A stretch of DNA of 64,000 nt from Fulvivirga marina (GTDB lineage Bacteria > Bacteroidota > Bacteroidia > Cytophagales > Cyclobacteriaceae): positions 153,961 to 217,960 of the forward strand of contig NZ_JAEUGD010000067.1 in assembly GCF_016775155.1 (NCBI RefSeq). Reading direction: 5' to 3'. Every line of letters starts with the position of its first letter. The stretch's first letter is position 1. The position numbers and the translations under genes were made by a program. Under the pieces are notes generated by a model. It made no database searches. It had not been told where the DNA came from and was given only the letters and a program-made list of their open reading frames with translations. Shown here in pieces: positions 1 through 54,779 of this stretch.

Positions 1-3000
1 CATCTATGGCTGCCTCGGTTGGTCCATAATAGTTATGGAGTCGTGCATGGGTAAAAACGGACGAAAAGGCTTCTACGGTCACTCCTTTCAGCGCTTCGCC
101 ACTACAGATCACATCTTCTACTCCGGGAAGCGTTGCCCCTTCTAACTGCATCGCATCCAGAAATACTGAGAGCATCGAGGGCACAAAGTGTATGACTTCA
201 ACACCTGCTTCTGCTATCGTTGTGCTGAGGTAGCTCTGGTCTTTATGACCTTCAGGGCGTGCGATCACCAGTGTCCCTCCTGTTATCAGCGGTAAAATAA
301 GTTCCCAGACAGAGACATCAAAAACGACCGGTGTCTTATGTAAAAAACGAGTGCCTGCGGTAAGTCCAAGCTCTTCCTGCATCCATAGCAGTCGGTTGAT
401 CAGTCCTCCGTGGGTGTTCTCTACACCTTTCGGTTTCCCTGTTGATCCTGAGGTGTAGATGATATAGGCCGTAGATGATCGGTCGGCGGGTGTCCATAGC
501 ACTGCCGATGTATCTTTTGCCAGGGTATCTGTTCTGATAACAAAACATGATGAAGGCAGCTCCATAGCTTCTGACTGGGATGTGCCGCTAAGCAAACATA
601 CCGCTCCGCTATCTTCGATGATCTCTCTGATCCGTGAAGCAGGGTAATCAGGATCCATCGGAAGGTATACACCCCCGGCTTTGAAAATACCCAGTACACT
701 GGCTATTAAGTCTGGGCTACGCTCTTGTAAAACTCCTACTACATCGCCACCTACAACTCCGGAAGTCTGCAATGACGATGCGATTTGGTCTGAGCGTGCA
801 TCCAACTCACGGTAGCTTATCTCATCTCCCTCATAAATCAATGCCAGGGCATCGGGGGTTGATGATACATGACTGGCAAACTGGGGGAGGATGGAAAAGT
901 CTTCGGGAATATCTCTATCAGCACCCTGAAGTTCCGCAAGGGATTCATTGTCTTCCGCCAATACGGTTGACAGGTTGATCTTCCGGTCAAGGGAGTCTGC
1001 CAACAGGCGAAGGGTATTCTCATAAATTTGGGTGAATCTCCTGAAATCTGTATCGGAGATAAAGGTGGTCACATAATCATACTGGATAAAACAGTTGCTT
1101 CGTACGCCGTTAACACTTACTTCAAACAAACCATGACCCCGGATGAAGTTATCGATGGCCACACGCTCCTCTTCGGTCACGGACCGGGAATGATCCATCG
1201 ATAGTTCATAGATCACATGGAAGCTCGTAAAGTTGAACAGCAGGTCGGTGATCGGGTTTTCCGTGAAATTGGTTACCCCCATCGCCCGCGCTATTCGGAA
1301 CAGGGAGGTACGATCGTATGCTTTGATCTCCTGTAGCTTCTGTTCTACTTTGGTCAAAAGTAATTCACCGGTCAGTTCTTCTGTCAGATCCAGACGCACT
1401 GGAATCGTATTTAAGAAGTTACCAAATACATCTACGCCTTCTTCCCCGATCATGCGGTTGAAGGTCACCAAACCCGCTACGATGTCTGAGCTGTAGCTCA
1501 TCATATTCAGACTGCTCATATACGCCGCAAAGAACAGGTTCTTGACGGTCGTGCCTCGGCTCGACGCCAGGTCTTCCAACGATCCGAAAAGATCCTGGTC
1601 AAAGGGAACCTTTATCGAGCGGAATGAACTATCCTCTACAGGGGTATTCAAACTGAACTTCGTAAAGCCCGATAGCTCTGATTTCCAAAAATCAAGGCTC
1701 TCTTCCATCCGGTCATAAACCATCTCTTCTATGATGAACTCCCGGTAGCCGGTACTTAATGGAGATGGACGATAGGTCTTATCTTCCTGAAGGGCTCGAT
1801 AGGTCCTGTTCAGCTCGGTCATAAAGGTTGCGATACTCCAGCCATCGGAAATGGCATGGTGGATCTCAAAGATCAGCACGTGAAAGTCTTCCTGAAGACG
1901 AAAGGCACTCAACCGCCATAAGGGTGCCTTATCCAGGGCGAAGGGGTGCTCTTGGGAGTGCTCCATATATGATCGGATATGCCCTTCCTGCTCCTGCTTT
2001 GGTTTTCCTCTCAAATCCGCATAGGGAACTTCTATTGAAAAGGGTTTATAGATCACATGGGCATTCTCCCCGACATCAAGAGCGGTACGCAGGGCGGTCT
2101 GTTTTTCTGTTAATAGGGTTAAGGCTTGTTCCAGAACATGGATATCAAAGTCCTCATAGGTAACTTCCCATACCAGTTGTTCAAAATAGATCAGGGCTTC
2201 TTCGTTCCTAAGCTGGATAAAGCTCATTCCGCGCTCTATGTTCGACATGGGATAGACCGACTCTATCGACGGGTCGACATGTTTTGATCGATAGGATGCT
2301 GAAAACTCTGCCAGATCGGTTTGTACCTCCTGGTAATATCGCTCATGGCCTCGGCTATCTTCTGACAGGGCATGGGAAAGTAGTTCTTCCAGCGTCTGGT
2401 ATTTATAGAGATCTGATACTTTAAGACTGGTATGAAGGGTTTCATTCATTCGGCTGATCAGACGAATTGCTGTGATCGAATCCCCGCCTATACTGAAGTA
2501 GTTATCTTCAAGGCCTACTGATTCAAGACCTAGGGTAGCGCTCCATATGGACGATGCTTTCTTCTCTAAATAACTCTGGGCTGATTTAATACCTTGCTGT
2601 ACCCGGAGAACCGGGTCTGGCAGATGCTGCTCATCCAGCTTACCGTTGGCCGTTAATTTTAAGTGGTCTATCCGTACAAAGTACGACGGTATCATATACA
2701 GGGGAAGCTTATCTGCCAGCAATCTGCGAAATTGTACAACATCTATATCTTCCTGACCTATATAGTAGGCTATCAGGTATTGGGCCTGAGAGCGCTCTCG
2801 GAACACTACCTTTACTTCTTCAATAAACTTGTAGGTGGACAGGATATTCTCTATGGCCTGTAGCTCTACCCGAAAGCCTTTTAGCTGTACCTGGTGGTCC
2901 ATACGACGATAGTAGATCAACTCGCCATGAGCGTCAACCCGGACAAGGTCGCCGCTCCTGTATAGTTTCCAGGGGGAGACCTCAGGACGACTGATAAATT

Positions 3001-6000
3001 TCTCGCCGGTCAGATCAGCATTTCCAATATATCCCTGGGATACGCCATAACCGCCTACATAGAGTTCGCCGGGCAATCCATGGGGAACTATGTTTCCGTC
3101 GCTATTGACCACGCAGGCAAAGTATCCTGGCAATGGAAGCCCTACATTGCTCTCATTCCTGGATATAATCGGGCGGGTGATCTCTTTGTAGGTTACATGT
3201 ACCGTCGTCTCGGTTATTCCATACATGTTCACCAGTTTCACGCCTGGGTAGGTGTCGTTCCAGTCTGAAAGCATTCCCGGCTGAAGCTTTTCGCCACCAA
3301 AAATAATGTAACGGAGCTTTATTGCTGAAGGCGCCTGTAAAGCTACACGCATAAGGTTATAAAAGGCGGTCGGCGTCTGGTTCAATACGGTTACCTGATC
3401 GCTTACTATTCGATCCAAAAGAAGGGTCGGGTCAAGTATTTCTTCCCGTGAAAGCACTAACAAATGTCCCCCGCTAACCAAGGGGCCGAAGATCTCCCAT
3501 ACGCTGAAGTCAAAGCAGTAACGGTGGAATAACGTCCAGGTATCTGATGAGCTAAAGGTAAATGGGGTATCCCGGTTTAGTACCAGGTTCTTCAGGTTCT
3601 CATGGCTGATCATCACTCCTTTGGACTTCCCTGTCGTGCCCGAGGTATAGATGATATAGGCAAGGGTGCCGGAGGGTATCAATACGCCCAGGTTCGCTGA
3701 ACTATAGCTTGCCAGATCAAGGGTGTCCGAACTTATTACTTCAAAGTTTAACCCATTCAATGCCTTCTCCGAATGGGTCAGTAGCAGTAGGGCCTGACTG
3801 TCTGAAAGTATCTCGCCAATACGTTCTGGTGAGGCATCATCATCGATCGGCACATAGGTCGAGCCTGTTTTCAGTACGGCAAGGATGGCAACGATCATCT
3901 CCACGGACCGATTATAATATAGCCCGATGCGATGCCCTGGGCCGGCACCTGACGACTGAAGGTGCCTCGCCAATCGGTTGGATCGGGCATTGAGTTCGCT
4001 GTAGCTCAATGACTCTTCTCCATAGCTCACCGCTGCCTTTTCCGGGTGATGCTTCTCCTGCATCTCAAAGGCATCTATAACTGTCTGATCAGGAGCAAAA
4101 CTTGTTCCTGTTATGGGGTAATTTAAATATACCTCAGGACCTTCTGCCTGAAGGCTAACGGAACGGAGGGACTGCCCCGGATCGGAAAGGACGCTATTCA
4201 ATATGTATTGGTAGGCATCCATAAAAACCTGTATGGTCGCTGGTTTAAATAGTGCCGTGCTGTATTCCATCTCCAGTAAAAGACCTTCCGGGGTTTCTTT
4301 TACGATCAGGGTCAGGTCAAATTTTGACAGCTTGTGGTCCAGTTGAACCGGAACTGCTTTGTATTCCTCTCTGGCTTCAGGATCAGATTCCAGGTGCTCA
4401 TAAACCAAACAGATATCAAACAGTGGGTTCCGGCTGGTATCACGGGCTACGTCAAGGCTTTCCAGTAAATCTTCATAGGGAAAGTCCTGGTGGTCCATGC
4501 ATTGCAATACCCGGTCTTTTACCTGAGCATGGAACGCTTCAAAACTCAGGTTGCGGTCTAATAGCATCCGGATCGGAAGGGTACTCGCAAACATCCCGAA
4601 AAGGTCTGACAGGTCGGGGTGGTTACGGCCATTGGTTATCGTACCTATCACCAGATCATCGCTGCCGGACAGTTTCCCTACTAAAAGGTAATAGGCTGCA
4701 TAGATGACGGTGTATACCGAGCTGCTGTGTTGCTCTGCATAATTCCTTAATGACTGGGTAGTTGTAGCCCCTAATGGCTGGGACAGGGTATCGCCTTCAA
4801 AGCTGCGGAAATGAGGTCGGGAATAATCGACAGGTAATTCTACCGGGGAAGGAAGGGATACATACTCTTGCTCCCAAAATTGTCTTTGTTTAACCAGGTC
4901 TGCCTGTGTATCTGCACTGTGGTACCAAATCACATAATCACGGTACTGCAATGGAACCGGATCAAGGGTAACACCCTGGTAAAGTGACAAAAGCTCTTTT
5001 ACCAGAAGATGCTGGGTAACGCCATCACTGATGATATGGTGGATATCAAACAGCAAAAGGCTACTTGTATCGCCGGGTACTACGCCTAGGCGAAACAATG
5101 GAAGGCTATCCAAAGAAAATGATTCCCTGAACTCTTGTAGAAGGTGTGCTTCATCTGTTCCTTCATCTGGTTGATAAAACCTTACGGATACAGCCCCTTC
5201 TTCATGCACTTTCTGAACTGGATGTCCTTCTTCCTGTTCAAATGTCGTTCTCAGGATCTCATGACGCTCAACCAAATGCTGACAGGATGCCCGTAAACGA
5301 TCTTCTTCCAGAATCACGGGCAACCTAACGGCAAAGGGCATGTTATAGGCTGTATTATCTTCTTCCAGGTGTTGTACAAAATACAACCGGCGCTGGGCTG
5401 GAGATAATGGGTAGGACAAGCAGGGCGCTGTTCGTTGGATCGGGCTATGTGTGGTCCGGTCAGATTCCTTTAACAGGGTTGCCTGGGAGGATATGGTGTC
5501 TCTTTCAAATAAGGCTGATATACTTAAATTAACCTGGTAGTCTTTTAGGATGCTGTGCTTTAGCATGACAACGGTCAGGGAGTTGCCGCCAAGACTGAAA
5601 AAACTGGTATGCGTGCCTATGCTCTCCGATGGCTGGGATAGTATCTCTCCCCATAGACTTTGAAGGTAAGACTCCTCTTCGCTCTCCGGGGTACTCACAC
5701 CGGATGCGCGGTTGGGTGTGGAACATAGCTCCAAAAGGGCGCGCTTATCAGTCTTACCATTGGGTGTCAGGGGTAATACCGGGACATGAATAAATACCGA
5801 GGGTATCATATAATCCGGCACCTGACTGGATAGATATGCACGAAGTATAGACTCTTTATAGGGAGTAGCACTTACATAAAAGGCGGCCAGCATCTTATGT
5901 TCTTGTTGTTCCTGAACTAATACTACGGCCTGGCTGATGCCTTCGTAGTTTTGAAGGTGGTTCTCCAAAGAACCCAGTTCAATCCGGTAGCCGCGAAGCT

Positions 6001-7951
6001 GTACCTGGTTGTCTTTCCGACTCAGGTATTCCAACTCTCCGTTTTCCATGACCCGTGCAAGGTCCCCGGACTTGTAAATACGCTCACCGGGTATATAGGG
6101 GTGCTCTATAAAACGGCTCGATGTTAACTCTGCCTTTCCATAGTAGCCATCTGCTAAGCCGATACCGCCTACATGAAGTTCGCCGATCATTCCGTTCGGC
6201 ACCAGGCAATCATGTTCATCCAGTAAATAGATCGAAAGGGTTGGCAGTGGTCGGCCAATGTTACTCGCTCCGCTTTCTATTTCTTCTCTTGTAATATGTT
6301 TAAATGTATTGTGGACCGTCGTCTCGGTGATCCCGTACATATTGATAACCTTTGTCTCAGGGTAGCTTTCATACCAGGAACGCATCAGGGATGGATTAAA
6401 GGCTTCTCCGCCTAGCGTGATATAGCGTAATTTAAAATCAGCTTCGGGATGGTGATCTTTATGACGAATCAGGTTGTAGAAGGCGCTTGGGGTCTGACAT
6501 AGGCACGTTACGCCGTGACCTTTCAAGATCTCTATGAATTCAAGGGTATCCATCGATGTCTCTCGGGGGAGGACGATCAGCTGGCCTCCGTAAAGCAACG
6601 ATCCGAAGATCTCCCATACGCTCATATCAAAACATGGGCTGTGGAACATTACCCATATGTCGCTGCTGCTGAAGTCAAAATCAAGTGAGTCATTGTATAG
6701 TAAACGAACTACATTCCGGTGGGGGATCATAACCCCCTTCGGGTTACCGGTGGTTCCCGAGGTATAGATGATATAGCAGAGGTCCTCCGGTAAGGGTTCT
6801 ACTCCTGTTGGTAAATCACTATAGCCTGTCGATGTGCTTATAGGGATAATCTGATGTTTATAGGATATGTCGCTGACGGACTCTGTGGACAGTACCAGTT
6901 CTACGCCACTGTCTTCAAGGATGTATTGAATGCGTTTGGCTGGATAGTTTACATCTACGGGCACATAGACGCCCCCCATCTTCAAAATACCCAGTATACC
7001 TATGATCGTCTCGTGGCTCCGACCTGTTAGCAAGCCGATCAGGTCGCCTGGACGACCGCCATGGCCCATCAGCATGTGCGCTACTCGGTTTGAGGCTTGG
7101 TCCAACGCTGAATAGCTCATATGAACATCGCCGTAAACTATGGCCGTGTTGTCTGGAAACAACGATACCTGGCTAGCAAATAGGCTCACTAAAGTCGATG
7201 ATTCCGGATAGCTTACTGACCGGTGATCAAACTGGCTTAAAAGGTGTTCGCGTTCTCTATCGCTGGTCAGCTCTACTTTGCCGTAATTCTGGTCGGGAGA
7301 CGCTAAAAGGTTCAACAGTAACTGCTCGTAAAAACTATATAGCTGCAAGATGCTCTCTTCTCTGTATTTTAGCTTGTTATAGCTAATCAGTACCTCTGAT
7401 CCTTCAAAATGGTAGTGTTGGTCACATAATATGCCTTCAAGGTCAATACGCTCGTGGATTCCTGAGCTGGTTAACCCCAACAGGCTGCCAGATGAAATGC
7501 TGGATATCTGCTCACTTAACAAATGTGTCACATTACAGTGAGGGTGGCCAAGGCTCTCCAGTATACTCGACTTTACCTGGGACAATATGTCTCGAAAAGT
7601 GGTGGTTGGTCCCAGTTCACTGAGGACGGGAATAACGTAACCGTCGGCTACGGAGGTCTCTGTATCGGTATAAGCTCCTGTAAATACCAGCGCCTGGCTA
7701 CAACCTGACAATCGGCTCGCCAGCACCTGGAAACCTGATAGCAATACCATATGTTGTGCCCGCAAGGAGTCAGATATCTTCTTCAGACCAGATAATAAAG
7801 TCTCTGACACTTCAACTTGTACGCTGCCTGACTCATAACCATCTTGATGTCTTAGCTCGTAATCACCAAAATAATCCGTGCCTTCCCAACGGTCCAGCTG
7901 ACCCGTAAAGTAACCTCGGTCAACCAGTTTTAACTCTATATCTTTTGCCAT
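1..7951 (-). CDS. NRPS, partial (C-terminal-half C)-A-PCP-C-A-PCP-C-A..., runs off the window
   Basis: The reading frame is open from the ATG at 7951 to the window edge, giving about 2650 residues and no stop. Domain order: residues 1-235 match only the C-terminal lobe of a condensation domain and have no HHxxxDG motif; A1 240-750 (YTSGTTGNPKG); PCP1 750-815 (LGGNSL); C 840-1265 (HHIISDG); A2 1280-1783; PCP2 1783-1843 (IGGDSI); C 1897-2330 (HHAISDGWS); A3 from 2340, cut by the edge. Pocket codes read by eye (final Lys assumed) are DMWCTGMVHK (Thr-like, uncertain), DFWNIGMVHK (the classic Thr code) and DVWHISYIDK (Ser-like). It would add three residues and continue. The complete C domain ending the protein at 13597-10469 probably serves A1. 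It is more GC-rich than the central genes. An AAGGGAG ribosome-binding site supports the start. Confidence 0.93.
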   Translation of the reverse strand, partial: MAKDIELKLVDRGYFTGQLDRWEGTDYFGDYELRHQDGYESGSVQVEVSETLLSGLKKISDSLRAQHMVLLSGFQVLASRLSGCSQALVFTGAYTDTETSVADGYVIPVLSELGPTTTFRDILSQVKSSILESLGHPHCNVTHLLSEQISSISSGSLLGLTSSGIHERIDLEGILCDQHYHFEGSEVLISYNKLKYREESILQLYSFYEQLLLNLLASPDQNYGKVELTSDREREHLLSQFDHRSVSYPESSTLVSLFASQVSLFPDNTAIVYGDVHMSYSALDQASNRVAHMLMGHGGRPGDLIGLLTGRSHETIIGILGILKMGGVYVPVDVNYPAKRIQYILEDSGVELVLSTESVSDISYKHQIIPISTSTGYSDLPTGVEPLPEDLCYIIYTSGTTGNPKGVMIPHRNVVRLLYNDSLDFDFSSSDIWVMFHSPCFDMSVWEIFGSLLYGGQLIVLPRETSMDTLEFIEILKGHGVTCLCQTPSAFYNLIRHKDHHPEADFKLRYITLGGEAFNPSLMRSWYESYPETKVINMYGITETTVHNTFKHITREEIESGASNIGRPLPTLSIYLLDEHDCLVPNGMIGELHVGGIGLADGYYGKAELTSSRFIEHPYIPGERIYKSGDLARVMENGELEYLSRKDNQVQLRGYRIELGSLENHLQNYEGISQAVVLVQEQQEHKMLAAFYVSATPYKESILRAYLSSQVPDYMIPSVFIHVPVLPLTPNGKTDKRALLELCSTPNRASGVSTPESEEESYLQSLWGEILSQPSESIGTHTSFFSLGGNSLTVVMLKHSILKDYQVNLSISALFERDTISSQATLLKESDRTTHSPIQRTAPCLSYPLSPAQRRLYFVQHLEEDNTAYNMPFAVRLPVILEEDRLRASCQHLVERHEILRTTFEQEEGHPVQKVHEEGAVSVRFYQPDEGTDEAHLLQEFRESFSLDSLPLFRLGVVPGDTSSLLLFDIHHIISDGVTQHLLVKELLSLYQGVTLDPVPLQYRDYVIWYHSADTQADLVKQRQFWEQEYVSLPSPVELPVDYSRPHFRSFEGDTLSQPLGATTTQSLRNYAEQHSSSVYTVIYAAYYLLVGKLSGSDDLVIGTITNGRNHPDLSDLFGMFASTLPIRMLLDRNLSFEAFHAQVKDRVLQCMDHQDFPYEDLLESLDVARDTSRNPLFDICLVYEHLESDPEAREEYKAVPVQLDHKLSKFDLTLIVKETPEGLLLEMEYSTALFKPATIQVFMDAYQYILNSVLSDPGQSLRSVSLQAEGPEVYLNYPITGTSFAPDQTVIDAFEMQEKHHPEKAAVSYGEESLSYSELNARSNRLARHLQSSGAGPGHRIGLYYNRSVEMIVAILAVLKTGSTYVPIDDDASPERIGEILSDSQALLLLTHSEKALNGLNFEVISSDTLDLASYSSANLGVLIPSGTLAYIIYTSGTTGKSKGVMISHENLKNLVLNRDTPFTFSSSDTWTLFHRYCFDFSVWEIFGPLVSGGHLLVLSREEILDPTLLLDRIVSDQVTVLNQTPTAFYNLMRVALQAPSAIKLRYIIFGGEKLQPGMLSDWNDTYPGVKLVNMYGITETTVHVTYKEITRPIISRNESNVGLPLPGYFACVVNSDGNIVPHGLPGELYVGGYGVSQGYIGNADLTGEKFISRPEVSPWKLYRSGDLVRVDAHGELIYYRRMDHQVQLKGFRVELQAIENILSTYKFIEEVKVVFRERSQAQYLIAYYIGQEDIDVVQFRRLLADKLPLYMIPSYFVRIDHLKLTANGKLDEQHLPDPVLRVQQGIKSAQSYLEKKASSIWSATLGLESVGLEDNYFSIGGDSITAIRLISRMNETLHTSLKVSDLYKYQTLEELLSHALSEDSRGHERYYQEVQTDLAEFSASYRSKHVDPSIESVYPMSNIERGMSFIQLRNEEALIYFEQLVWEVTYEDFDIHVLEQALTLLTEKQTALRTALDVGENAHVIYKPFSIEVPYADLRGKPKQEQEGHIRSYMEHSQEHPFALDKAPLWRLSAFRLQEDFHVLIFEIHHAISDGWSIATFMTELNRTYRALQEDKTYRPSPLSTGYREFIIEEMVYDRMEESLDFWKSELSGFTKFSLNTPVEDSSFRSIKVPFDQDLFGSLEDLASSRGTTVKNLFFAAYMSSLNMMSYSSDIVAGLVTFNRMIGEEGVDVFGNFLNTIPVRLDLTEELTGELLLTKVEQKLQEIKAYDRTSLFRIARAMGVTNFTENPITDLLFNFTSFHVIYELSMDHSRSVTEEERVAIDNFIRGHGLFEVSVNGVRSNCFIQYDYVTTFISDTDFRRFTQIYENTLRLLADSLDRKINLSTVLAEDNESLAELQGADRDIPEDFSILPQFASHVSSTPDALALIYEGDEISYRELDARSDQIASSLQTSGVVGGDVVGVLQERSPDLIASVLGIFKAGGVYLPMDPDYPASRIREIIEDSGAVCLLSGTSQSEAMELPSSCFVIRTDTLAKDTSAVLWTPADRSSTAYIIYTSGSTGKPKGVENTHGGLINRLLWMQEELGLTAGTRFLHKTPVVFDVSVWELILPLITGGTLVIARPEGHKDQSYLSTTIAEAGVEVIHFVPSMLSVFLDAMQLEGATLPGVEDVICSGEALKGVTVEAFSSVFTHARLHNYYGPTEAAID

Positions 7952-7957
7952 AAAATA

Positions 7958-7964
7958 CTCCCTT
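7958..7964 (-). promoter_or_regulatory. Shine-Dalgarno site of the partial NRPS
   Basis: AAGGGAG lies six bases before the ATG at 7951, just before the stop codon of the desaturase gene. Most other genes here have only A-rich starts, so this site helps fix the start of a protein that would otherwise look truncated at its N terminus. Confidence 0.6.
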
Positions 7965-7967
7965 TTA

Positions 7968-9050
7968 TTATCTCAGTTCGCCTTCATTTACCAAGCCCCG
8001 GTACTCATCCAGCATATGTAGCCCAAATGATATACCAGGCTCCCCTCCTTCCCACTTACGATACTTTTTTGTATAGCTCAAAAGAGTTTCCGTCTTAGAT
8101 TTACTCCTACTAAAAATTCCTCCCCATATATTGTCCCATTCTCGATAATTAGCATCTTTTCGTAGAACCTCATGTGCTTCTCTGAGTTTGTAACAAGGAA
8201 TAGAAGGGCATAGGTGATGCACCAAGTGATAACGGTCTCCATGTCTTCCGAAAATAAAGTTTTCAATCATGTTCCCGTGCCTGTTTCTGGTAAGCAGTAA
8301 CTCTGACTTTTCAGATTCTGGCAAAGGATAATGTTCAGCCATTTCTGCTAACCAGCCAATTGTAACATAAGATGTAAAGAGTGGTATGATCCAGAATAGA
8401 AAGAATTCCAATAAAACTCCTGCAAGTATTACAGTAGCAAAAACAACCGCCCAAGTAATAAAAAACTGTAGTCTTTCTCTCCTGAATTTACGAGCTCTTT
8501 CCGCTGACAAATGAGACGTGTCAAAAAAGATCCTGTCGCGGTAGATATACCGGATGTATTCAATGGTTCTATAACCGATAATCGAAAGCACGATATTTTT
8601 GATAAAAAACATTCTATACCCTTCTTTAGTATCGTACAGACCACAAGCTATCTGAAAGTTATAATCCGGGTCCTTCTCTTCATCTCCACAATAAGGATGG
8701 TGCCCTCTAAGGTGTGTCTGCTTATAGGGAATCAAAAGGTGACAGATTAGAAACGAAGTAAAGTAGGTTCCTAAAATCTGGTTTAGCCTTTTATTAGAAG
8801 ACAATAACCCATGGCTGGCCTCGTGTAAAAGATTAGCAAAAACCCGCTGAACTGACCCAATGATTATCAGACTAATTGGGTAAAACCAATACGAAAATTG
8901 CACACAAATGATAACTGAAAATGCAATTAGAAGGTAGTTAAAAAGCACGATTAACAACCCCGAGTATTTATTTGCTCCTCGTAGTTTCTGAACCTCTCTT
9001 AATATACTTTTTGAAATATTGATCGGTTCAATTTGTTGTAACGTTTCCAT
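7968..9050 (-). CDS. membrane fatty acid desaturase family protein
   Basis: This 360-residue membrane protein carries the three histidine clusters of di-iron membrane desaturases: HEASH near residue 97, HLRGHH near 113-118 and HLVHH near 273-277. Several hydrophobic segments lie between them, at about 35-75, 145-165 and 200-235. The family introduces double bonds, or sometimes hydroxyls, into acyl chains using O2 and reductant. The gene overlaps the end of the upstream glycosyltransferase by 23 bases and ends 16 bases before the partial NRPS, so it is translated as part of the cluster. A likely role is modification of the lipid tail loaded by the FAAL module, but the substrate is inferred. 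An ordinary membrane-lipid desaturase captured by the cluster is the alternative. Confidence 0.88.
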   Translation of the reverse strand: METLQQIEPINISKSILREVQKLRGANKYSGLLIVLFNYLLIAFSVIICVQFSYWFYPISLIIIGSVQRVFANLLHEASHGLLSSNKRLNQILGTYFTSFLICHLLIPYKQTHLRGHHPYCGDEEKDPDYNFQIACGLYDTKEGYRMFFIKNIVLSIIGYRTIEYIRYIYRDRIFFDTSHLSAERARKFRRERLQFFITWAVVFATVILAGVLLEFFLFWIIPLFTSYVTIGWLAEMAEHYPLPESEKSELLLTRNRHGNMIENFIFGRHGDRYHLVHHLCPSIPCYKLREAHEVLRKDANYREWDNIWGGIFSRSKSKTETLLSYTKKYRKWEGGEPGISFGLHMLDEYRGLVNEGELR

Positions 9051-44860: not shown

Positions 44861-44912
44861 CTGTATTTAGCACAGTAAGGAAAGTAAACCGGCTAATGAA
44901 TGAACCAATAGT

Positions 44913-44953
44913 TATTACCTCTTCAGCACAAATTTTGCGTTGAAGAGGTAATA
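44913..44953 (-). terminator. 13-bp hairpin downstream of the permease, possible terminator or attenuator
   Basis: TATTACCTCTTCA (44913-44925) is exactly complementary to TGAAGAGGTAATA (44941-44953), with a 15-base loop. It begins about 47 bases after the stop codon of the permease gene. In the minus direction no T-run follows, so a plain intrinsic terminator is doubtful. An attenuator, a processing or mRNA-stabilising hairpin, or a site for the antiterminator to act on are alternatives. Confidence 0.45.
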
Positions 44954-44999
44954 GGAACAAAGGTATATGATCTTACTTCAGATATGTTGATCCTACCTT

Positions 45000-47369: not shown

Positions 47370-47509
47370 GTTGGTTTTTTAATACTTATTTCAAAGCAAA
47401 AACAATACCTGAAAGGTAAATATTTGAAATATTGATACTTACAACATAAGTAACATCGATCATCTGTACGATATCGTAACAAAATGAACGAAATCGCTCA
47501 TTTCATATG
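47370..47509. other. 140-bp intergenic gap between first NRPS and permease
   Basis: The gap is AT-rich, with no strong terminator. A 6-bp complementary pair (AAATGA / TCATTT) near 47482-47503 lies right after the NRPS stop and is too weak to call. I see no convincing Bacteroidota TAnnTTTG box on the minus strand. Confidence 0.4.
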
Positions 47510-50500
47510 TCAGTCGAACAGATCATCCAATTCCTCCTGCTCCAATGTTGCCATTTCAAAATCCTCAGGTCTAAATTGAATATGTTTGTCTTGAGAAAGG
47601 TGATCAACTACCAATGCCAGGGACTCTTCAAAGAGATCTTTCAGTGCATGGACTGTATCTTTAGAAAAAGCCTTCTTATTATATGAAAAAATTGTGGTTA
47701 GCACACCTGAAACTATTAGTGCATTTACCTCTATTTTGGCTGTAAAATGATTTTCCGGGGCAACTTCCAATCCGGTGGATATCGGGGCATATTTAAACGT
47801 GTCGTTATCAAACTCACCATCAAAAATTCCCAGAAAATTAAACCTGAATTCTGTAAGGTCCGTATGAGGGACACCATTTTGAAGCTGATAATGTACATAA
47901 CCTATGCCTCCATCTGTAATAGAGTTAAATATAGATTTAACCTGACTCAATATTGAAGTGATTTGCCCGTCATCCCAAGTAAATCTAGTTGGAAATATTG
48001 ATGTGAACCAACCACAGGTTCTCGAAAAATCCTGCTCATCAAAAGTACGGCCATGGCCTTCCTGTTCTATTTGTACTTCCTTCAGCCCTAGCCATTTACA
48101 CAAACTCATTACCAGTGCAGTATTTAAAATAGTCCTGGCATCTACTTCATGCGTTTTAAATGCTTCTTTTACAAGAAAGTTGGTCAGACCTGACTCTGAT
48201 TCAAAATTGATAGTCTCTGTATTTTGGAGACTCCAGTCTGAAGTTTCAAAATCACAGGGTATTTTGAAAGGTGAACTTTTGTGCCATGCCCAAAAATCAC
48301 ATTTTTCCTTCGATAAGCTATTCTCTGGGATGTCTGCAAAGGCAGTCGCCAATTTAGAAACTGGTGCCGTTTTTTCAGAAAGTGTCAATAACATCCCTGC
48401 AGCATATTCCTGATACCATTGCTGCAGGTCCTCTAACAATATCCTCCAGGATACACCATCTACAACCAAATGATGAGCCGTTAGAAATAGCGACTTAGGA
48501 CCGTTATTGGTTTGGAAAATGACAGCTTTAAATAGCAACCCGTTCTTCAAATCCATACTCATCTTGATTGCCTGACACTTATCAGCTAAAGATTCTTCAT
48601 CAGCAATTTCAATAACAGGAATATCAAAGGGTCCTAAATGGGAATTATTATAAAATAGTTGCTTCGATTCAGGGTTATAATTCAGACGGAGTCCATCGTG
48701 CCTGCGTATCAGTTCCTCCATTACTTTACTTAGAACTTCTATCTGTATGTCAGATTTAAAATTCAGTACAACGGATTGATTGTAGTAGTTAACATTCTCA
48801 AAATTATGATTAAAAAACCACGAAATAATAGGAGGCATGGCAAAGGAACCGGACTGAAGTTCCTGGTAATGTGGATTTTTAAGTTCCAGTCTGGAAACAA
48901 CCGGGCTCAGTTGAGCAACAGAAAAGTGCGAAAGCACCTCTCTGGGAGTTACCTGCAACCCCTTATTACGCAACTGTGCTGAGATCTGAACCGCTTTAAT
49001 GGAATCTCCACCCTCGGCAAAAAAGTTATCGTCCACCCCTATTTTAGTATTCAAAACTTTCTGGTAAACCGGAAGAATTAGTGCCTCCATTGCTGTCAAC
49101 TCACGACCCACTTGCTGTACAGTATTAGCCCCTGGCTTTAATGCATTATAGTCTACCTTCCCATTTTTGGTAAGGGGAATGAAATCCAAATGTGTATAGG
49201 TTAAGGGGATCATATAATGTGGTAGCCTTGACGCCAGAAAAGTTTTGATTGCTTCACTCTCCAGAGATTGCTCACTCAAATAATATGCATCCAGGATCAT
49301 TGCACCCGATGCCCCTTCCCTTGTATGTACCAAAGCATCCCTGATTCCCATAAAGTTATTCAACTCATACTCTATTTCAGCCAGCTCTATACGGTACCCA
49401 TTGATTTTAACCTGATTATCGATCCTGTTAATATATTCTATAACCCCATTTTCCACCTCTACAGCCACGTCACCAGTTTTGTACATCAAAGTACCTGGCT
49501 CAAACGGATTCTCTATGAATTTTTCTGCAGTTGAGGCGGGATTGTTATGGTAGCCCAGTGCCAGACCTTTTCCTCCTATATAGAGCTCTCCATGCACCCC
49601 CTTAGGTACAGGCTGAAGTTCTGTGTCTAACAGATAGATTGTAGTATTGGATATAGGAACCCCAATAGGAACTGATCTAGTTTCAGTTGCCGGATCAAAC
49701 TTATGGATCATGCACCCTACTGTAGCTTCTGTAGGACCATATTCGTTATATATTTCCAGGTGCTCTCCAAACATCTTCCAGACATCATCCGAAAGTTTCC
49801 AGTCCAGACGTTCTCCACCTACGATAAACCTCTTTATTTTTTTCTTTATAGCAGGTTCAAAGCTCAAAGAAGTCAGCACCTTGAGGTGTGCCGGTGTAAG
49901 TTTAATAACGTTACAACGACCTTCCTCAATAATCCTTTCAATCAGGATATCATCTTCATTATCCTGATAGATCACGATCTCATTCCCTGTAACCAAAGGT
50001 ATGAATAGTGAAGTCAACGTAAGGTCAAAAGAAATTGACGTAAATAATGGGAAAGCGACGTCTACGTCTGTACCGATGTAACTGCGAGCCCCCCAGCCTA
50101 CATAATTGATCAATGAGACATGCCCCACTTTTACCCCCTTGGGATTGCCTGTAGTTCCTGAGGTGTAAATAATATATGCCGGAGTAATTTCCTCTTTCGA
50201 TCCCCTGTTAACAGACTCTTTAACTCTTTTAAAAAGTTGAATATCTCCAAAAGTACTCTCTTGTATATATAATGAAGAGATACTAGCCCCTATTTCCTTC
50301 TCGGAAAATATCAGCTCGCATTCACTGTCTTCTACTATACGGTATACCCTCTCCTCCGGCAACTGTGTATCCAATGGTATAAAAGTAGCTCCTGCCTTAA
50401 GCACCCCCAGCACAGCTATAACAAACTCAGGGCTTCTGTCCAGGAACAATGCTACCTTACCCGCTTCCACTCCCAGTTCTCTTAATACTTCTGCCAATTC

Positions 50501-53500
50501 ATCAGATTTCTGACTTAGGGTATTAAAAGACCATGTATTATTACCAAACCGAATGGCTACATGATCAGGTGTCTGCCTTGCCTGCTTCTCAAACCAATGA
50601 TGTATTTGATTCTCCAAGGTGAAAGACTCCTCAACTCCCTGAAATTTTGGATGCTCTAAGATCATATTCTCCTGTTCGGCCGAATATGATGATAACCGTT
50701 TTAATGGCAATTTGGGTGAAGATTTGGTAATATTTCCAAGTAGTGTTCTAAAGTGAGATGCAAACTGTTCCATTCTCCATTGGTCAAAGAGTGCCGTAGC
50801 ATACTCCAGACTGAATCTCATGTTTTCTTCACCATCAAAGACATGTAGAGAAATGTCAAATTTTGAAGTGCCGCTATCAATAAAGGACTGCTTCCAGATA
50901 CCAGCTTCTGACTTTAACTCGCTATCCCAATGATGATGCAAAACAAACATTGTATCAAACAGTGGGTTTCTGCTAGCGTCAGATCGTTTCTGAATATGGT
51001 CCACTATTTTTTCAAAAGGGCAGCGCGCAAACCGAACCACCTCCAAAATATTAGCCGTTACAGATTCCAGGTAATGCTCAAAGGATTGCTCTGAATCAAT
51101 ATGAACAACCACCGGAACACTATTTACAAACATCCCAGCCATATCAGGCAGCTGCATATGCTCTCTCATATGAACCGGAATACCTACACATAAGGTATCC
51201 TGACCACTATACTTTGAAAGTAGCAGGGCATATGCGGCAAAAAGAACTGAGTTCAATGAACAACCTGCATCCATAGCCATATTTTTCAATGCTCTGGACT
51301 GTTTTGTCCCCAGTTCAAATGTCAGGGTTTTGCCAGAAGAGTCAAATATTGCCGGCCTCGGTCTGTCTGCAAACAAATTGAGTGTAGACGGCAACTGCTC
51401 TTGTTTTTCTTTAAAAAACTCCAAGGCTTCAGAAAAATCAGTACGGAGCCGTTCCTTTTCCCAAATCACAAAATCAGTATAATCTACGTCAATCTGTGAT
51501 AATGTATGTCCATCATAAAGTGTAATCAACTCTCTAACCAGTTGATTTAGTGAAAGCCCATCACATATACTGTGGTGTACATCAATAAACAAATAACTTA
51601 CTCCATTTACAGCAATGAGTCTAACTCGGAATAATGGGTCTCTTTCCAGATCAAAAGGCTGTATATACGCTTTAAGGACTTCTTCAGGAGCACCGTTAAC
51701 ATCTGGAGTCACCTGCATATCTATAATTGTTGACTGCCGGATAAAAAATAACGGGATTCCATCCTTTTGTCCAAAGCTGGCTTTCAGAATCGGATGTCTT
51801 GCGCAAAGTGCTTCAAGAGACACTCTAAGCCTTTCCTTCTCTAAAGGAGTATTCAGTTTAAATACAAGAGGGATATTGTAAGTCAGAGTATCCTTATTGG
51901 CTGCCCATGCATAATAGAGCCTTTTTTGGTAGGAAGACAGCGGATAATCTTGCCTTTTTTCGCACTTTATTATCCCATCAACAATTGTAGATTCCGTGGT
52001 TTCAATCAATCCCGCAAGCTGTCTAATCGTTTGGTTTTTAAAGAAGGTGTAAATATCGATCTGAAAACCAAAAAGCTCCTGTATTTGTGATAATAGGCGA
52101 AAAGCAGTTAGAGAGTTGCCTCCTGCTTCGAAGAATCTTGTTGTAGTTCCAATAAGTTGCCGGTGTTTTGGAAGAAGCTGTTTCCATAGCGATAAGATTT
52201 TCTCTTCCAATTCTGTCTCAGGAGGGGACATATCATTATTTGAAGGTAAGGCATCTACAAGAGCTGCCAAAGTTTTGGTCACGTGCGCAAAATCCCCTTT
52301 CCTGAAACTTTCTACTAACCGGAACCTCTGTAGTTTCCCACTGGTCGTCTTTGGAATCTCTCGTACAGGAAGTATATAGTCGGCCTCAAAACCAAAGTGT
52401 AAGTTCAAGTGCTTCCGAATTTGCTCTGCCAACACTACAAAATCCTCATTTTTCCCTCTGAAAAGAACAAAAACCAAAACAATATCCTTTTGCTCGGAAG
52501 AATCAAAATAGCCACTCACTACTATTTTATTGAGCTCGACCCCAGGAATACCCTCTGCCACTCTTTCCAGATCATGAGGATAATAATTCTGTCCGTTTAC
52601 AAAAATAATATCCTTACTTCTTCCTATAATATATAAATTACCCTGATGGTAAAATCCCGTATCTCCGGTATTAAGCCAACCATTGATAATCATTTCACGG
52701 TTCACTTCAGGATTATTATAATACCCGGAGGTTACATTCTCTCCTTTAATAAAAACATGACCAACATAACCTTCCTCAAACTCTTCACCCTGCCGGTTGG
52801 CAATTTTCAATTTACTTTCGCCAATGGGCCTGCCCACATTTACAAAAGGTATTGTGTCTTCATCATTTTCCTGAGCAACCAGTACCTCCTCTCCAACACC
52901 CAGGGAGCCCCGGGATACGGTCAGTGAATTAACTTTATCCTCTAAATCAGAAATAGAAACCGCCAAACTTGCCTCAGCAAGTCCGTAAACAGGGCACATG
53001 GCATCATGGGAAAGCTGATAACGCTCCATGGCGTCAATGAACTCAAAAGCCAACTCTTCAGAAATTGGCTCAGCACCATTGTAGATTAGCCTGACAGATG
53101 AGAGGTCCCAGTTGTAACTCTTTTTAGCAGACATATGCTTGAGTAAATACCGATACCCAAAATTTGGAGAACACAATATTGTTATCCGATGCTTTGAAGC
53201 TTTATCCATCCATATGGATGGTCTTCTAATAAATATATTTGTATGGATCAGATATTGATTCATCCCATATAACAGCGGGTTCAAATGAAAACCAATAAGA
53301 CCCATATCATGAGTGAGAGGCATCCAGCTCAAGGTACTATCCAAATCAGTATATCCGGCTGCTTCTCCAATGTCCCTAATATTTGTTAATAGGTTATGGT
53401 GAGTTAGTGTAACACCTTTTGGGGTGCCAGTTGACCCTGAAGAAAACTGAATAAACGCGATATCTCCCGGGTTAATGTCTGGCCTTGCGGGAACGGATTC

Positions 53501-53950
53501 ACGGGATTCAAAAACTTTAGATTCCAACAAACTCCTGGTGAGTATTTTTTTAAACACATCACCATATTCATTGATCTCAGCAAATACGCCAAGGTCACTA
53601 AGTCCCTTTGACGAGATCAGTATAAAAGGGTTTGAAAGTACATTCCACACATTAAGTACCTTGCGTTTGTGCTCATCCTTATGGCCAACCGTCAATGGCA
53701 CTGGAATAATACCACCAAGAATACTGGCCCAAAAAAGAATGATAAAAGATTCATTATCATCTATTTGAAAGATTAACTCATCCCCCTTTTTCAAGTCCTT
53801 ACTTTGAAGAAAAGTCAGAACTGTAAGTGCCCGTTTTAACAAATCTCTATATGACAAAAACTTTTCTTCATCTCCCTCTATAAAAACCACACCCTTATCG
53901 CTTAAAGTACTTTGGTGTGATATCAGTTCTATCAATGTTTTGTATTGCAT
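47510..53950 (-). CDS. lipopeptide-initiating NRPS, FAAL-PCP-C-A-PCP-E
   Basis: The 2146 residues begin with a fatty-acyl-AMP ligase-type domain (1-560; FSSGSTGTPKG near 170, then the family-typical WMPLTHDMGLIG). This activates a fatty acid as acyl-AMP and loads it on the first carrier (575-645; AGGNSL). Then come C (665-1100; HHSICDG), A (1125-1610; YTSGTTGNPKG), PCP (1625-1690; EGGDSI) and E (1710-2130; HHLVVDGVSW, EGHGR, CGWFTSIFP). The A pocket reads D-L-T-K-I-G-E-V-G-(K), matching the established Asn pattern. The module should make a fatty acyl-D-Asn starter. Its position first in the transcription order, directly behind the antiterminator gene, fits the initiation role. A clear ribosome-binding site precedes the ATG. 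Confidence 0.96.
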   Translation of the reverse strand: MQYKTLIELISHQSTLSDKGVVFIEGDEEKFLSYRDLLKRALTVLTFLQSKDLKKGDELIFQIDDNESFIILFWASILGGIIPVPLTVGHKDEHKRKVLNVWNVLSNPFILISSKGLSDLGVFAEINEYGDVFKKILTRSLLESKVFESRESVPARPDINPGDIAFIQFSSGSTGTPKGVTLTHHNLLTNIRDIGEAAGYTDLDSTLSWMPLTHDMGLIGFHLNPLLYGMNQYLIHTNIFIRRPSIWMDKASKHRITILCSPNFGYRYLLKHMSAKKSYNWDLSSVRLIYNGAEPISEELAFEFIDAMERYQLSHDAMCPVYGLAEASLAVSISDLEDKVNSLTVSRGSLGVGEEVLVAQENDEDTIPFVNVGRPIGESKLKIANRQGEEFEEGYVGHVFIKGENVTSGYYNNPEVNREMIINGWLNTGDTGFYHQGNLYIIGRSKDIIFVNGQNYYPHDLERVAEGIPGVELNKIVVSGYFDSSEQKDIVLVFVLFRGKNEDFVVLAEQIRKHLNLHFGFEADYILPVREIPKTTSGKLQRFRLVESFRKGDFAHVTKTLAALVDALPSNNDMSPPETELEEKILSLWKQLLPKHRQLIGTTTRFFEAGGNSLTAFRLLSQIQELFGFQIDIYTFFKNQTIRQLAGLIETTESTIVDGIIKCEKRQDYPLSSYQKRLYYAWAANKDTLTYNIPLVFKLNTPLEKERLRVSLEALCARHPILKASFGQKDGIPLFFIRQSTIIDMQVTPDVNGAPEEVLKAYIQPFDLERDPLFRVRLIAVNGVSYLFIDVHHSICDGLSLNQLVRELITLYDGHTLSQIDVDYTDFVIWEKERLRTDFSEALEFFKEKQEQLPSTLNLFADRPRPAIFDSSGKTLTFELGTKQSRALKNMAMDAGCSLNSVLFAAYALLLSKYSGQDTLCVGIPVHMREHMQLPDMAGMFVNSVPVVVHIDSEQSFEHYLESVTANILEVVRFARCPFEKIVDHIQKRSDASRNPLFDTMFVLHHHWDSELKSEAGIWKQSFIDSGTSKFDISLHVFDGEENMRFSLEYATALFDQWRMEQFASHFRTLLGNITKSSPKLPLKRLSSYSAEQENMILEHPKFQGVEESFTLENQIHHWFEKQARQTPDHVAIRFGNNTWSFNTLSQKSDELAEVLRELGVEAGKVALFLDRSPEFVIAVLGVLKAGATFIPLDTQLPEERVYRIVEDSECELIFSEKEIGASISSLYIQESTFGDIQLFKRVKESVNRGSKEEITPAYIIYTSGTTGNPKGVKVGHVSLINYVGWGARSYIGTDVDVAFPLFTSISFDLTLTSLFIPLVTGNEIVIYQDNEDDILIERIIEEGRCNVIKLTPAHLKVLTSLSFEPAIKKKIKRFIVGGERLDWKLSDDVWKMFGEHLEIYNEYGPTEATVGCMIHKFDPATETRSVPIGVPISNTTIYLLDTELQPVPKGVHGELYIGGKGLALGYHNNPASTAEKFIENPFEPGTLMYKTGDVAVEVENGVIEYINRIDNQVKINGYRIELAEIEYELNNFMGIRDALVHTREGASGAMILDAYYLSEQSLESEAIKTFLASRLPHYMIPLTYTHLDFIPLTKNGKVDYNALKPGANTVQQVGRELTAMEALILPVYQKVLNTKIGVDDNFFAEGGDSIKAVQISAQLRNKGLQVTPREVLSHFSVAQLSPVVSRLELKNPHYQELQSGSFAMPPIISWFFNHNFENVNYYNQSVVLNFKSDIQIEVLSKVMEELIRRHDGLRLNYNPESKQLFYNNSHLGPFDIPVIEIADEESLADKCQAIKMSMDLKNGLLFKAVIFQTNNGPKSLFLTAHHLVVDGVSWRILLEDLQQWYQEYAAGMLLTLSEKTAPVSKLATAFADIPENSLSKEKCDFWAWHKSSPFKIPCDFETSDWSLQNTETINFESESGLTNFLVKEAFKTHEVDARTILNTALVMSLCKWLGLKEVQIEQEGHGRTFDEQDFSRTCGWFTSIFPTRFTWDDGQITSILSQVKSIFNSITDGGIGYVHYQLQNGVPHTDLTEFRFNFLGIFDGEFDNDTFKYAPISTGLEVAPENHFTAKIEVNALIVSGVLTTIFSYNKKAFSKDTVHALKDLFEESLALVVDHLSQDKHIQFRPEDFEMATLEQEELDDLFD

Positions 53951-54269
53951 GAGACTCCCTGATGTTTCAGGTGTTATTAATCGAGTTTATTTGATTTTGC
54001 TTTTGACGCTTGGACACAACTTCGTTTCCCTCAGTCACATGAAGTTCTCGTCAAAATGAATTGAAGTAGGAAAATATTGCACCTTATCATTACCACATAT
54101 GGGGTCTAAGGCACTAATACAATATTAAAAATTTATAGTTTTTATCAAAAGCAAACCCCAAAATAATTTTCCTTAAAATCTCATCGTACCATCCTGATTG
54201 TCAAACAACAATTCCAGTGTTGAACGTTATAAAATTTCATAGTTACATTCGGCAAATGCATACATTATT
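53951..54269 (-). other. 319-bp leader between the antiterminator gene and the first NRPS
   Basis: No gene fits this AT-rich stretch. I see only weak hairpins: AACTTC/GAAGTT around 54018-54046, and an imperfect one near 54200-54225 just behind the antiterminator stop. There is no convincing intrinsic terminator or TAnnTTTG promoter box. By analogy with LoaP/UpxY systems the transcribed leader could hold the RNA or DNA element where the antiterminator is recruited. That is inference. Confidence 0.4.
53955..53960 (-). promoter_or_regulatory. Shine-Dalgarno site of the first NRPS
   Basis: AGGGAG ends four bases before the ATG at 53950. It supports this start for the FAAL-NRPS. Confidence 0.6.
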
Positions 54270-54779
54270 TTAGCACACATTAAAGGCATGTGCAGGAACA
54301 GTTGCCTTGATATTTTGGCGCAGGGAATCTATCCGTACTATGATTTTATTGAGGTTACTAGTTTCCAAAATTTCACACTCCAACCCACTTAAAGGTCCGT
54401 AGGTAATTTTTCTCAACTCCCCTACCTTGGGCAAATGCACATTTGTTTCAATGTCGGTAATATTTTCATCTCCAACCAAGTATTGAATCTGTTTAATTTC
54501 ATTATCAGAAACTTGCGCATACTCAATTCCGAAACGGATATAACCACAGGCTCCATTTACAGACAGAGCTCTATGAAATTCAGATTGCGTATTAATATTT
54601 ACAAATACATATGATGGAAACAATGGCTTCAAGATAGTTTTCTTTCTATCACTCCATTCCCGAACTGTTCTTACTAAAGGCAGAAACGACTTTAAAGAAA
54701 TTTCCTCAAGTGAATCAGCAACTTTTTTTTCAGATCGAGATTTAACATACAGAACGTACCAAGCATTAGAGAAACTCAT
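54270..54779 (-). CDS. specialised NusG paralogue (UpxY/LoaP-type antiterminator)
   Basis: The 169 residues have the NusG layout. The N-terminal NGN domain (about 6-105) starts with WYVLYVKSRSEKKVADSLE and contains the KPLFPSYVFV signature. A C-terminal KOW-like domain (about 115-165) follows. Paralogues of this size in Bacteroidota (UpxY) and in Firmicutes (LoaP) sit at the head of long polysaccharide or antibiotic operons and keep RNA polymerase from terminating early. Here it is the first gene of a co-directional minus-strand run of more than 54 kb, which fits that role. It has no obvious ribosome-binding site, and a TACTTTTG box lies about 50 bases upstream. Confidence 0.9.
   Translation of the reverse strand: MSFSNAWYVLYVKSRSEKKVADSLEEISLKSFLPLVRTVREWSDRKKTILKPLFPSYVFVNINTQSEFHRALSVNGACGYIRFGIEYAQVSDNEIKQIQYLVGDENITDIETNVHLPKVGELRKITYGPLSGLECEILETSNLNKIIVRIDSLRQNIKATVPAHAFNVC

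Follow-up and report, generated by a model that had tools for sequence, protein, structure and literature searches.

An UpxY-type antiterminator gene and an ops-like leader element precede a predicted lipopeptide NRPS-PKS operon in Fulvivirga marina

Introduction

UpxY proteins are known to control the capsule operons of B. fragilis (Chatzidaki-Livanis 2009/2010, as described in PMC7819879, PMC7593976 and PMC12632263). In the accounts of these loci given there, upxY opens a long biosynthetic operon, each operon has its own divergent copy, and upxZ is often present. Other NusG paralogs are dedicated to giant PKS/NRPS operons: those for difficidin and macrolactin in Bacillus velezensis have LoaP, and that for antibiotic TA in Myxococcus xanthus has TaA. 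In E. coli, the NusG paralog RfaH is paired with ops, a short element of the leader whose core resembles a stem-loop. For LoaP, the passages of PMC12691694 that deal with it describe binding to an RNA hairpin. The chitinopeptins of Chitinophaga are large NRPS lipopeptides from Bacteroidota with hydroxylated residues; in the sections of PMC9248904 describing their clusters, a C-starter domain begins three out of four, and CmlA-like features and Dap genes are found in each.

We analysed a stretch of 64,000 nucleotides of the Fulvivirga marina genome (the window), whose left part is occupied by an NRPS-PKS cluster. Many NRPS/PKS clusters of Bacteroidota have no known product, and our search of the open-licence literature turned up no study that places UpxY at NRPS/PKS operons. 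Here, as described for the B. fragilis capsule loci, upxY stands first; unlike those loci, it is followed by assembly-line genes, no gene fits the gap between upxY and the first synthetase (319 nt), and the leader element lies downstream of upxY. The window UpxY belongs to another NusG subfamily and phylum than LoaP and TaA, reaching neither the LoaP model (63.8 bits, cut-off 125) nor the RfaH model (75.4 bits, cut-off 144.5), and its element, unlike ops, has a consensus of its own. In contrast to the chitinopeptin clusters, this one starts with a FAAL-type ligase and contains a PKS module, cupins, and biopterin-type and GntB-like enzymes. Identity with the chitinopeptins was rejected: the cluster proteins scanned gave no Pfam match to a CmlA-like metallo-hydrolase or to sbnA/B Dap proteins.

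Results

Organisation of the cluster

Genes and domains were called from the open reading frame list and from Pfam and NCBIfam scans (Table 1). The six synthetases found within 1-54779 agree with a preliminary description of this DNA, which had reported six co-directional NRPS or PKS-NRPS proteins with tailoring genes over the left 54 kb; the domain scans likewise supported the colinear NRPS-PKS order proposed there. The MacB/ADOP-type permease probably serves export or self-protection. Rfam models at gathering thresholds gave zero matches within the window.

Table 1 Features of the cluster and of its leader region (window positions).
Feature	Positions	Strand	Basis
Candidate promoter TACTTTTG, 51-58 nt upstream of upxY	54830..54837	-	match to TAnnTTTG
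upxY, antiterminator of the NusG type, opening the presumed operon	54270..54779	-	NF033644
Ops-like leader element (TGTGACT, 6 nt, AACGAAGTT, GTGTC), between upxY and NRPS1	54013..54040	-	pattern/matrix comparison
NRPS1: FAAL-type acyl-AMP ligase-ACP-C-A(Asn-like code)-PCP-E	47510..53950	-	Pfam, motifs
MacB/ADOP-type ABC permease	45000..47369	-	Pfam/NCBIfam
Biopterin-dependent aromatic amino acid hydroxylase-like protein	43890..44708	-	Pfam Biopterin_H, PDB 7vgm
NRPS2: C-PCP-E (without A), then C-A(Thr-like)-PCP	37628..43816	-	Pfam, motifs
A-less module 2 (C-PCP-E) within NRPS2	40853..43786	-	domain string CECA
PKS-NRPS3: KS-AT-KR-ACP, C-A(unassigned)-PCP-E, C-A(Ser-like)-PCP	25509..37625	-	Pfam, motifs
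Cupin_8/JmjC-type oxygenase 1	24563..25507	-	Pfam; PDB JMJD7 5nfo, E 1.1e-16
Cupin_8/JmjC-type oxygenase 2	23556..24491	-	Pfam
NRPS4: C-A(unassigned)-PCP, C-A(Cys/Gly-like)-PCP, C	15585..23516	-	Pfam, motifs
AsnB-type glutamine amidotransferase	13676..15541	-	TIGR01536, 459.6 bits, cut-off 267.1
NRPS5: A(unassigned)-PCP-C	10469..13597	-	Pfam
GT1/macrolide-type glycosyltransferase	9028..10380	-	Pfam/NCBIfam
Membrane diiron-type hydroxylase, fatty-acid-desaturase fold	7968..9050	-	NF041365
NRPS6: partial C, A(Thr-like)-PCP, C-A(Thr-like)-PCP, C-A(Ser-like), runs off the left edge	1..7951	-	Pfam, motifs

Predicted assembly line and product

By colinearity, the line takes an acyl starter and extends it at 11 amino-acid positions and by one ketide. 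The FAAL-type ligase would load the starter, most likely a fatty acid; D-Asn would be added, followed by one residue loaded in trans at the A-less module, Thr, one KR-reduced malonate unit and eight further residues, and a terminal thioesterase (TE) just left of the window would release the product. This TE was found by extending the sequence leftwards, as had been suggested, and it ends the line: what lies there is the remainder of the last A domain followed by a PCP and the TE, leaving no place for the "and more" previously postulated beyond the last Ser. Our reading of the A-domain codes by eye, with motif positions and residue assignments that we take to be those of the literature, returned the same residue string as the earlier one, except that its second position ("D-X") has no A domain. 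From the cluster we would expect a new scaffold, glycosylated and lipopeptide-like, whose assembly line includes an A-less epimerising module.

NRPS1 aligned near full length with FAAL-ACP-C-A-PCP-E-type proteins of other Bacteroidota (Aquimarina, Fulvivirga, Pedobacter, Chitinophaga, others), the best being 43% identical and none exceeding this value (best segment, 80 loci kept; records very near the genome of the window may be absent from that search). Searches with two cluster proteins, the biopterin enzyme and the 7968-9050 hydroxylase, found no close relative of the cluster.

A condensation domain directly before an epimerisation domain occurred in one of the 154 compared open reading frames, that of NRPS2. 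The absence of the A domain could mean that module 2 is decayed and skipped, giving a product of ten residues without D-X, and no clear trans partner was seen: the free A-PCP gene close by, at 55469, is fused at its end to a BioF/serine palmitoyltransferase-like domain and was set aside for this reason. In the module itself, however, the serine motif of the PCP is intact, as are the motifs of C and E, which argues for use of the module in trans, and we regard skipping as rather unlikely, while giving it more weight than the other alternatives discussed below.

The layout of the NRPS1 N-terminus, an acyl-AMP ligase fused to an ACP and a C domain, is that of FAAL-primed synthetases. Priming by a FAAL, as previously proposed, held in part: a fatty acyl-AMP ligase (NF006624) was the best NCBIfam model for the starter domain (360.2 bits; amino-acid adenylation model 118.5 bits, cut-off 317.4), but the score is below the model cut-off of 600, and among solved structures McyG (4r0m, 1.9e-91) and an NRPS adenylation protein (6ulx, 2.4e-85) ranked ahead of the FAALs 3pbk (8.6e-71) and 3kxw. 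The score and this ranking would suit a starter that is another carboxylic acid, and a product that is an acylpeptide of another kind; we consider this improbable against the ranking of the NCBIfam models and the ACP-C-A-PCP-E layout typical of lipopeptide starters.

Tailoring enzymes

The glycosyltransferase, the biopterin-type hydroxylase and the two cupin oxygenases named earlier were all found in the Pfam and NCBIfam scans. The protein at 7968-9050, previously called a desaturase, is likelier an amino-acid hydroxylase by sequence comparison, because its closest model was that of the GntB arginine gamma-hydroxylases (NF041365; 287.5 bits, under the equivalog cut-off of 380); no counterpart reached 1e-20 when 389 other genomes of the order were searched with it. 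The biopterin enzyme matched Pfam Biopterin_H (62 bits, cut-off 22.7) and PDB 7vgm (E 4.5e-20), and scored 99.3 bits against the phenylalanine 4-hydroxylase model, under its equivalog cut-off of 247. A pattern scan of the named genomes found zero relatives of this enzyme; some match at 1e-3 was present in 129 of the 196 sampled genomes of the family (own genome included), the best foreign one by E-value being 30% identical over about 206 residues. Tailoring would probably consist of hydroxylation (two cupins, biopterin-type enzyme, GntB-like enzyme) and glycosylation.

Recurrence of UpxY upstream of assembly-line genes

The protein encoded at 54270-54779 belongs to the UpxY family (NF033644 antiterm_UpxY, 127.6 bits, cut-off 100), and its gene is the first of a long co-directional set. 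All four UpxY genes above the cut-off in this genome are followed on their own strand by NRPS or PKS genes; the synthetase is the next gene in three (gap of 117-320 nt), and eight genes intervene in the fourth. UpxY was also present in 21 of the 80 named loci, always upstream and co-directional; these 80 were retained from a search that used NRPS1 as its sole query, so that the count is NRPS1-selected, and all 21 fall within the 41 Bacteroidota loci among them. Fulvivirga imtechensis has an UpxY-led cluster of its own. A 900-residue rule kept two UpxY loci (L037, L040), which have short condensation-like proteins downstream, out of the assembly-line count. A tree of 70 UpxY (one of the two from locus L102 was left out) did not support a single origin of the assembly-line UpxY: 10 changes for 10 rows, with a shuffled mean of 9.6. 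The dedicated antiterminator postulated in the preliminary description gains support from the family membership, the per-operon copies and the common leader element.

Upstream of upxY, the candidate promoter matches TAnnTTTG, presumably the Bacteroidota -7 promoter pattern. Over 44700-55469, scans for sigma-70 promoters (39 vs 31.8, sd 6.5) and for terminators (8 vs 7.3, sd 2.9) were near chance.

The leader element

A non-random, sense-strand ops-like element (TGTGACT, 5-6 nt, AGCGAAGCT) is present in about a third of the leaders examined. Two blind tests were made: a weight matrix was built from 6 loci and run on 65 other UpxY loci that had been held out, where it gave 19 sense vs 2 antisense matches at score 12 and 13 vs 0 at score 14, the excess being smaller at score 8 (31 vs 17 of 65); a family-leader matrix applied to the 21 named UpxY loci gave 8 sense vs 2 antisense at score 14. 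The remaining patterns are post hoc, the bipartite and looser ones each having been written after inspection of the leaders: the bipartite pattern matched 23 of 71 leaders in sense, none in antisense and no control stretch (6 matches in 1.82 million strand-bases outside leaders); the looser one matched 12 of the 21 named loci (about 0.1% of shuffles) and 24 of the 71 family loci in sense, with 0 antisense in either set. By this loosest pattern, the element is absent from 9/21 named and 47/71 family loci. The long form of the element is present in only three of the four leaders of this genome. A 14-mer was first seen by eye, and the genome-wide pattern written from the leaders concerned gave 12 matches vs 6 for a reversed control; only 8 of the 12 are independent, since the pattern was partly written from 4 leaders among them.

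The window copy has no predicted hairpin (0.0 kcal/mol, DNA parameters), and weak folds were predicted in most of the copies tried. Stem covariation is slight (pair 2-8: GC 24, AT 1, AC 1 of 26), and the Chitinophaga leaders differ in loop length while keeping the stem arms. The element might work as RNA, through a hairpin of the nascent transcript like that bound by LoaP, rather than as non-template DNA, and the same sequence would indeed give an AGC-GNA-GCU RNA hairpin. The core of the element nonetheless resembles what we take to be the E. coli ops sequence, which makes us doubt an RNA mode of action. In the passages of PMC12691694 citing Saba 2024, moreover, UpxY is described as bridging to upstream duplex DNA. 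We lean towards recruitment at the DNA element.

NRPS6 and the scaffold join

NRPS6 is placed between the join marked by one N, directly left of the window, and the point of overlap with another contig. Its GC3 is 0.51, whereas the other cluster genes within the window range over 0.31-0.44; a 79-bp repeat (98.7% identity) flanks the N, which lies inside NRPS6; and contig C19 has 119 aligned bases in common with 7888-8006 before diverging. All three would fit a mis-assembly that placed NRPS6 here from another locus. We judge this distinctly improbable: GC3 returns to about 0.3 around the PCP-TE boundary within one reading frame, the two copies of the repeat flanking the N share one frame, the hydroxylase gene ends and NRPS6 begins within the 119 common bases, and the line would lack a TE if NRPS6 were removed. 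A block acquired by horizontal exchange would fit equally well.

Proposed transcription of the operon

We lean towards reading the window as almost all of one very long operon for a tailored lipopeptide, with transcription led by upxY and recruitment of its product at the ops-like element. Transcription would begin upstream of upxY; UpxY made from this first gene would be recruited to RNA polymerase paused at the element (54040-54013), just upstream of NRPS1, and would travel with the polymerase, so that the following ~50 kb could be read without premature termination. Should the transcription of the many Bacteroidota NRPS/PKS clusters with no known product hinge on a short leader element and an UpxY encoded in the operon, why they are silent could be put to the test, and there would be a simple lever for expressing them.

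Whether this extends to Bacteroidota at large, with giant NRPS/PKS operons run by operon-resident UpxY at a conserved ops-like DNA element after many independent recruitments, is in our view an even call. If so, UpxY would be widened from capsules to natural-product operons, in parallel to LoaP in Bacillota and TaA in myxobacteria; one genome could hold several mutually divergent UpxY-leader pairs, and therefore a private elongation switch per natural-product operon; and silent Bacteroidota clusters could generally be read by supplying the cognate UpxY.

UpxY might instead act in trans on another target, for example a polysaccharide operon, in the manner of RfaH, its position before NRPS1 being incidental. 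UpxY operons elsewhere in the family can indeed include Wzz/Wzc-type genes: seven of ten large proteins picked downstream of UpxY and scanned carried GNVR and/or AAA_31 domains. This alternative is very unlikely given the invariable placement of UpxY ahead of co-directional assembly-line genes in the own-genome (above cut-off) and NRPS1-selected loci and the element in many of those leaders.

UpxY genes in front of assembly lines

The recurrence of a UpxY antiterminator gene together with a common ops-like element is a more valuable result than the biosynthetic cluster itself. The upxY product of the window scores 127.6 bits with the UpxY model (cut-off 100), and the Fulvivirga marina genome (6.78 Mb, 69 contigs, 102 condensation-domain matches) encodes four UpxY proteins over the cut-off, with just 28-35% pairwise identity, and a fifth, weaker match taken for the housekeeping NusG. 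The four genes are located 320 nt before NRPS1 in the window; 275 nt before a gene encoding an AMP-ligase/KS/AT/aminotransferase/NRPS protein, whose architecture is akin to the iturin/mycosubtilin starter; 117 nt before a KS/DH/KR protein (no AT was found there at 1e-10); and before eight genes (HAD-like, acyl-CoA dehydrogenases, sulfotransferases, 3HCDH, AMP-ligase, MacB permease) followed by an NRPS about 11 kb on.

UpxY matches at 1e-20 were present in 128 of 196 family genomes (121 over the cut-off), usually as a single copy; only F. marina and one other genome (G072) have four. The UpxY of a genus mate (G142) scores 134.6 bits. An NRPS/PKS protein of at least 900 residues was encoded within 12 kb downstream in 10 of the 71 UpxY loci examined, a count biased by ten of these loci (the four of F. 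marina and six from genomes picked for NRPS content or kinship). The other 61 loci, from 60 regions sampled at roughly one per genus (some genera two), include five with an assembly-line protein and two without downstream sequence. Ten large proteins were picked downstream of other UpxY loci (12 listed): seven Wzz/Wzc-like (GNVR and/or AAA_31), one MacB permease and two AsnB-like. In a tree of 70 UpxY proteins, the assembly-line label required 10 changes for 10 rows, alike to the shuffled mean (9.6); a supported clade of 52 contains two of the ten assembly-line UpxY (those of the window and locus L034), the other eight being among the 18 outside it. Another genus mate (G186, locus L040) encodes UpxY, a MacB permease and, farther on, two short condensation-like proteins (478 and 598 aa); this may be an operon in which the NRPS domains are free-standing.

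Named genomes were searched with NRPS1 as the sole query, and the best 80 of 583 relative-encoding stretches were kept with flanks of up to 10 kb, contig permitting. A model built from the 71 family sequences detected UpxY in 21 of these best 80 loci, always upstream and on the same strand, and nothing more down to 1e-3. All 21 are Bacteroidota by title (two from one genome, Fulvivirga imtechensis), as are 41 of the 80; the other 39 kept loci had no UpxY. The distance to the NRPS1-like gene was 400 nt or less in ten loci (Aquimarina, Roseivirga, Flavobacterium, Tenacibaculum, four Chitinophaga, Fulvivirga and one unclassified Bacteroidetes); in the rest UpxY was farther upstream, up to about 8 kb.

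According to passages of the published work, UpxY proteins antiterminate the capsule operons of Bacteroides fragilis (PMC7819879, PMC7593976, PMC12632263), LoaP and TaA serve PKS operons of other phyla (PMC12691694, PMC7819879), and UpxY contacts with DNA are attributed to Saba 2024 (in PMC12691694). Judged by title and abstract, the open-licence papers searched included none that deals with UpxY at NRPS or PKS operons.

A common element in the leaders

A 14-mer common to six leaders was spotted by reading. The weight matrix built on these leaders was applied to the other 65 loci, several of which are near relatives of one another, and gave 19 sense versus 2 antisense matches at score 12 and 13 versus 0 at score 14; the difference was narrower at score 8 (31 versus 17). 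Genome-wide in F. marina, the 14-mer pattern had 12 matches, four of them UpxY leaders that partly served to write it, and the reversed control had 6. Of the 71 leaders, 23 contained the longer pattern TGBNACT-N4-7-RRCGNAGYY, among them six of the ten assembly-line leaders and three of the four from F. marina; there was no antisense match in the leaders and none in control stretches, and 6 matches occurred in 1.82 million strand-bases away from leaders. A family-leader matrix gave 8 sense versus 2 antisense matches at score 14 in the 21 named loci. The window copy and those of several family loci are downstream of upxY, ahead of the gene that follows it; the best-scoring copies of the 12 named loci having the element are upstream of upxY.

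Chitinophaga leaders show AGC-GATA-GCT where others have AGC-GAA-GCT; since loop length varies while the arms stay, these sequences favour a hairpin. Beyond this change covariation was slight, and fold prediction gave no hairpin for the window copy. Another conserved stretch (AAATTAAACATGTTGATTCG[TC]AGA...) is located 159-192 nt upstream of upxY (118 nt in L068) in five related loci without the ops-like element (L056, L067, L068, L075, L079), and is perhaps their own recruitment site.

Organisation of the assembly line

ORFs and domain scans bore out the six co-directional synthetases and tailoring genes of the preliminary description, and the cluster is a real, near-complete lipopeptide-type system. 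The codes, read by eye, are presumably Asn-like, none (position 2), Thr-like, malonate, unassigned, Ser-like, unassigned, Cys/Gly-like, unassigned, Thr-like, Thr-like and Ser-like, with an E domain after position 1, position 2 and the first post-ketide residue. Position 2 had been described as D-X; module 2 (NRPS2) has no A domain. C directly before E occurred only in NRPS2, one of 154 ORFs in which a C, A or E domain was recognised (window proteins and ORFs of at least 700 residues from the 80 named loci), 61 of which have an E domain. The best NCBIfam model for the starter domain was fatty acyl-AMP ligase (360.2 bits, cut-off 600), the amino-acid adenylation model being far lower (118.5 bits, cut-off 317.4); the closest solved relatives of the starter domain were McyG (4r0m) and 6ulx, then the FAALs 3pbk and 3kxw. 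The supposed desaturase matched the GntB arginine hydroxylase model instead (287.5 bits, under the cut-off of 380). The NRPS6 TE can be aligned to the surfactin TE, with Cys (GFCSG) at the position of its Ser.

Features of the cluster, its flanks and related UpxY loci (synthetase domains from domain scans; window, C64:153961-217960; L003, stretch left of the window)
Feature	Position (strand)	Description
upxY	window 54270-54779 (-)	first gene before NRPS1
Leader element	window 54013-54040	ops-like
NRPS1		acyl-AMP ligase-ACP-C-A-PCP-E
NRPS2		C-PCP-E-C-A-PCP
PKS-NRPS3		KS-AT-KR-ACP-C-A-PCP-E-C-A-PCP
NRPS4		C-A-PCP-C-A-PCP-C
NRPS5		A-PCP-C
NRPS6		(partial C)-A-PCP-C-A-PCP-C-A-PCP-TE, including the part beyond the left window edge
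Raised-GC3 NRPS6 block	window 1-8006, L003 19000-20000	between assembly seams
Contig C19 repeat	C19:1-118	repeat of window 7888-8006
Alpha-amylase-like	L003 16040-18031	adjoins NRPS operon on left
GlgA-like glycosyltransferase	L003 14523-16043	adjoins NRPS operon on left
250-aa protein	L003 13646-14398	flanks carbamoyltransferase; no Pfam or NCBIfam match
684-aa protein	L003 9554-11608	flanks carbamoyltransferase; no Pfam or NCBIfam match
A-PCP fusion gene	window 55469-59236 (+)	divergent; fused to BioF/serine palmitoyltransferase-like PLP domain; GC 48%
Alpha-amylase	window 59469-62966 (+)	three CBM26 stretches, Por secretion tail
L032 (F. marina)	C63:552000-565138	AMP-ligase/KS/AT/aminotransferase/NRPS protein led by UpxY
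Genus mate G142 UpxY	C48:144397-144855	

Left end and neighbours of the operon

A single N stands directly left of the window, inside NRPS6, flanked on both sides by a 79-bp stretch (98.7% identity) with identical residues in the identical frame; the 605-residue ORF past it encodes the remaining A domain, PCP and TE. NRPS6 has a GC3 of 0.51, dropping to about 0.3 near the PCP-TE boundary; the remaining cluster genes within the window are at 0.31-0.44. Contig C19 has 119 aligned bases in common with window 7888-8006 and diverges thereafter. A recombined block fits NRPS6, and so does an assembly fault. Farther left, besides the two proteins for which the family search gave no match, there are genes encoding the alpha-amylase-like and GlgA-like proteins, the carbamoyltransferase, a stand-alone thioesterase and a GNAT-type protein. 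To the right of the operon, the PLP domain of the divergent A-PCP fusion gene scored under the cut-offs of the BioF/serine palmitoyltransferase models, and a separate aminoketone pathway is possible for this gene.
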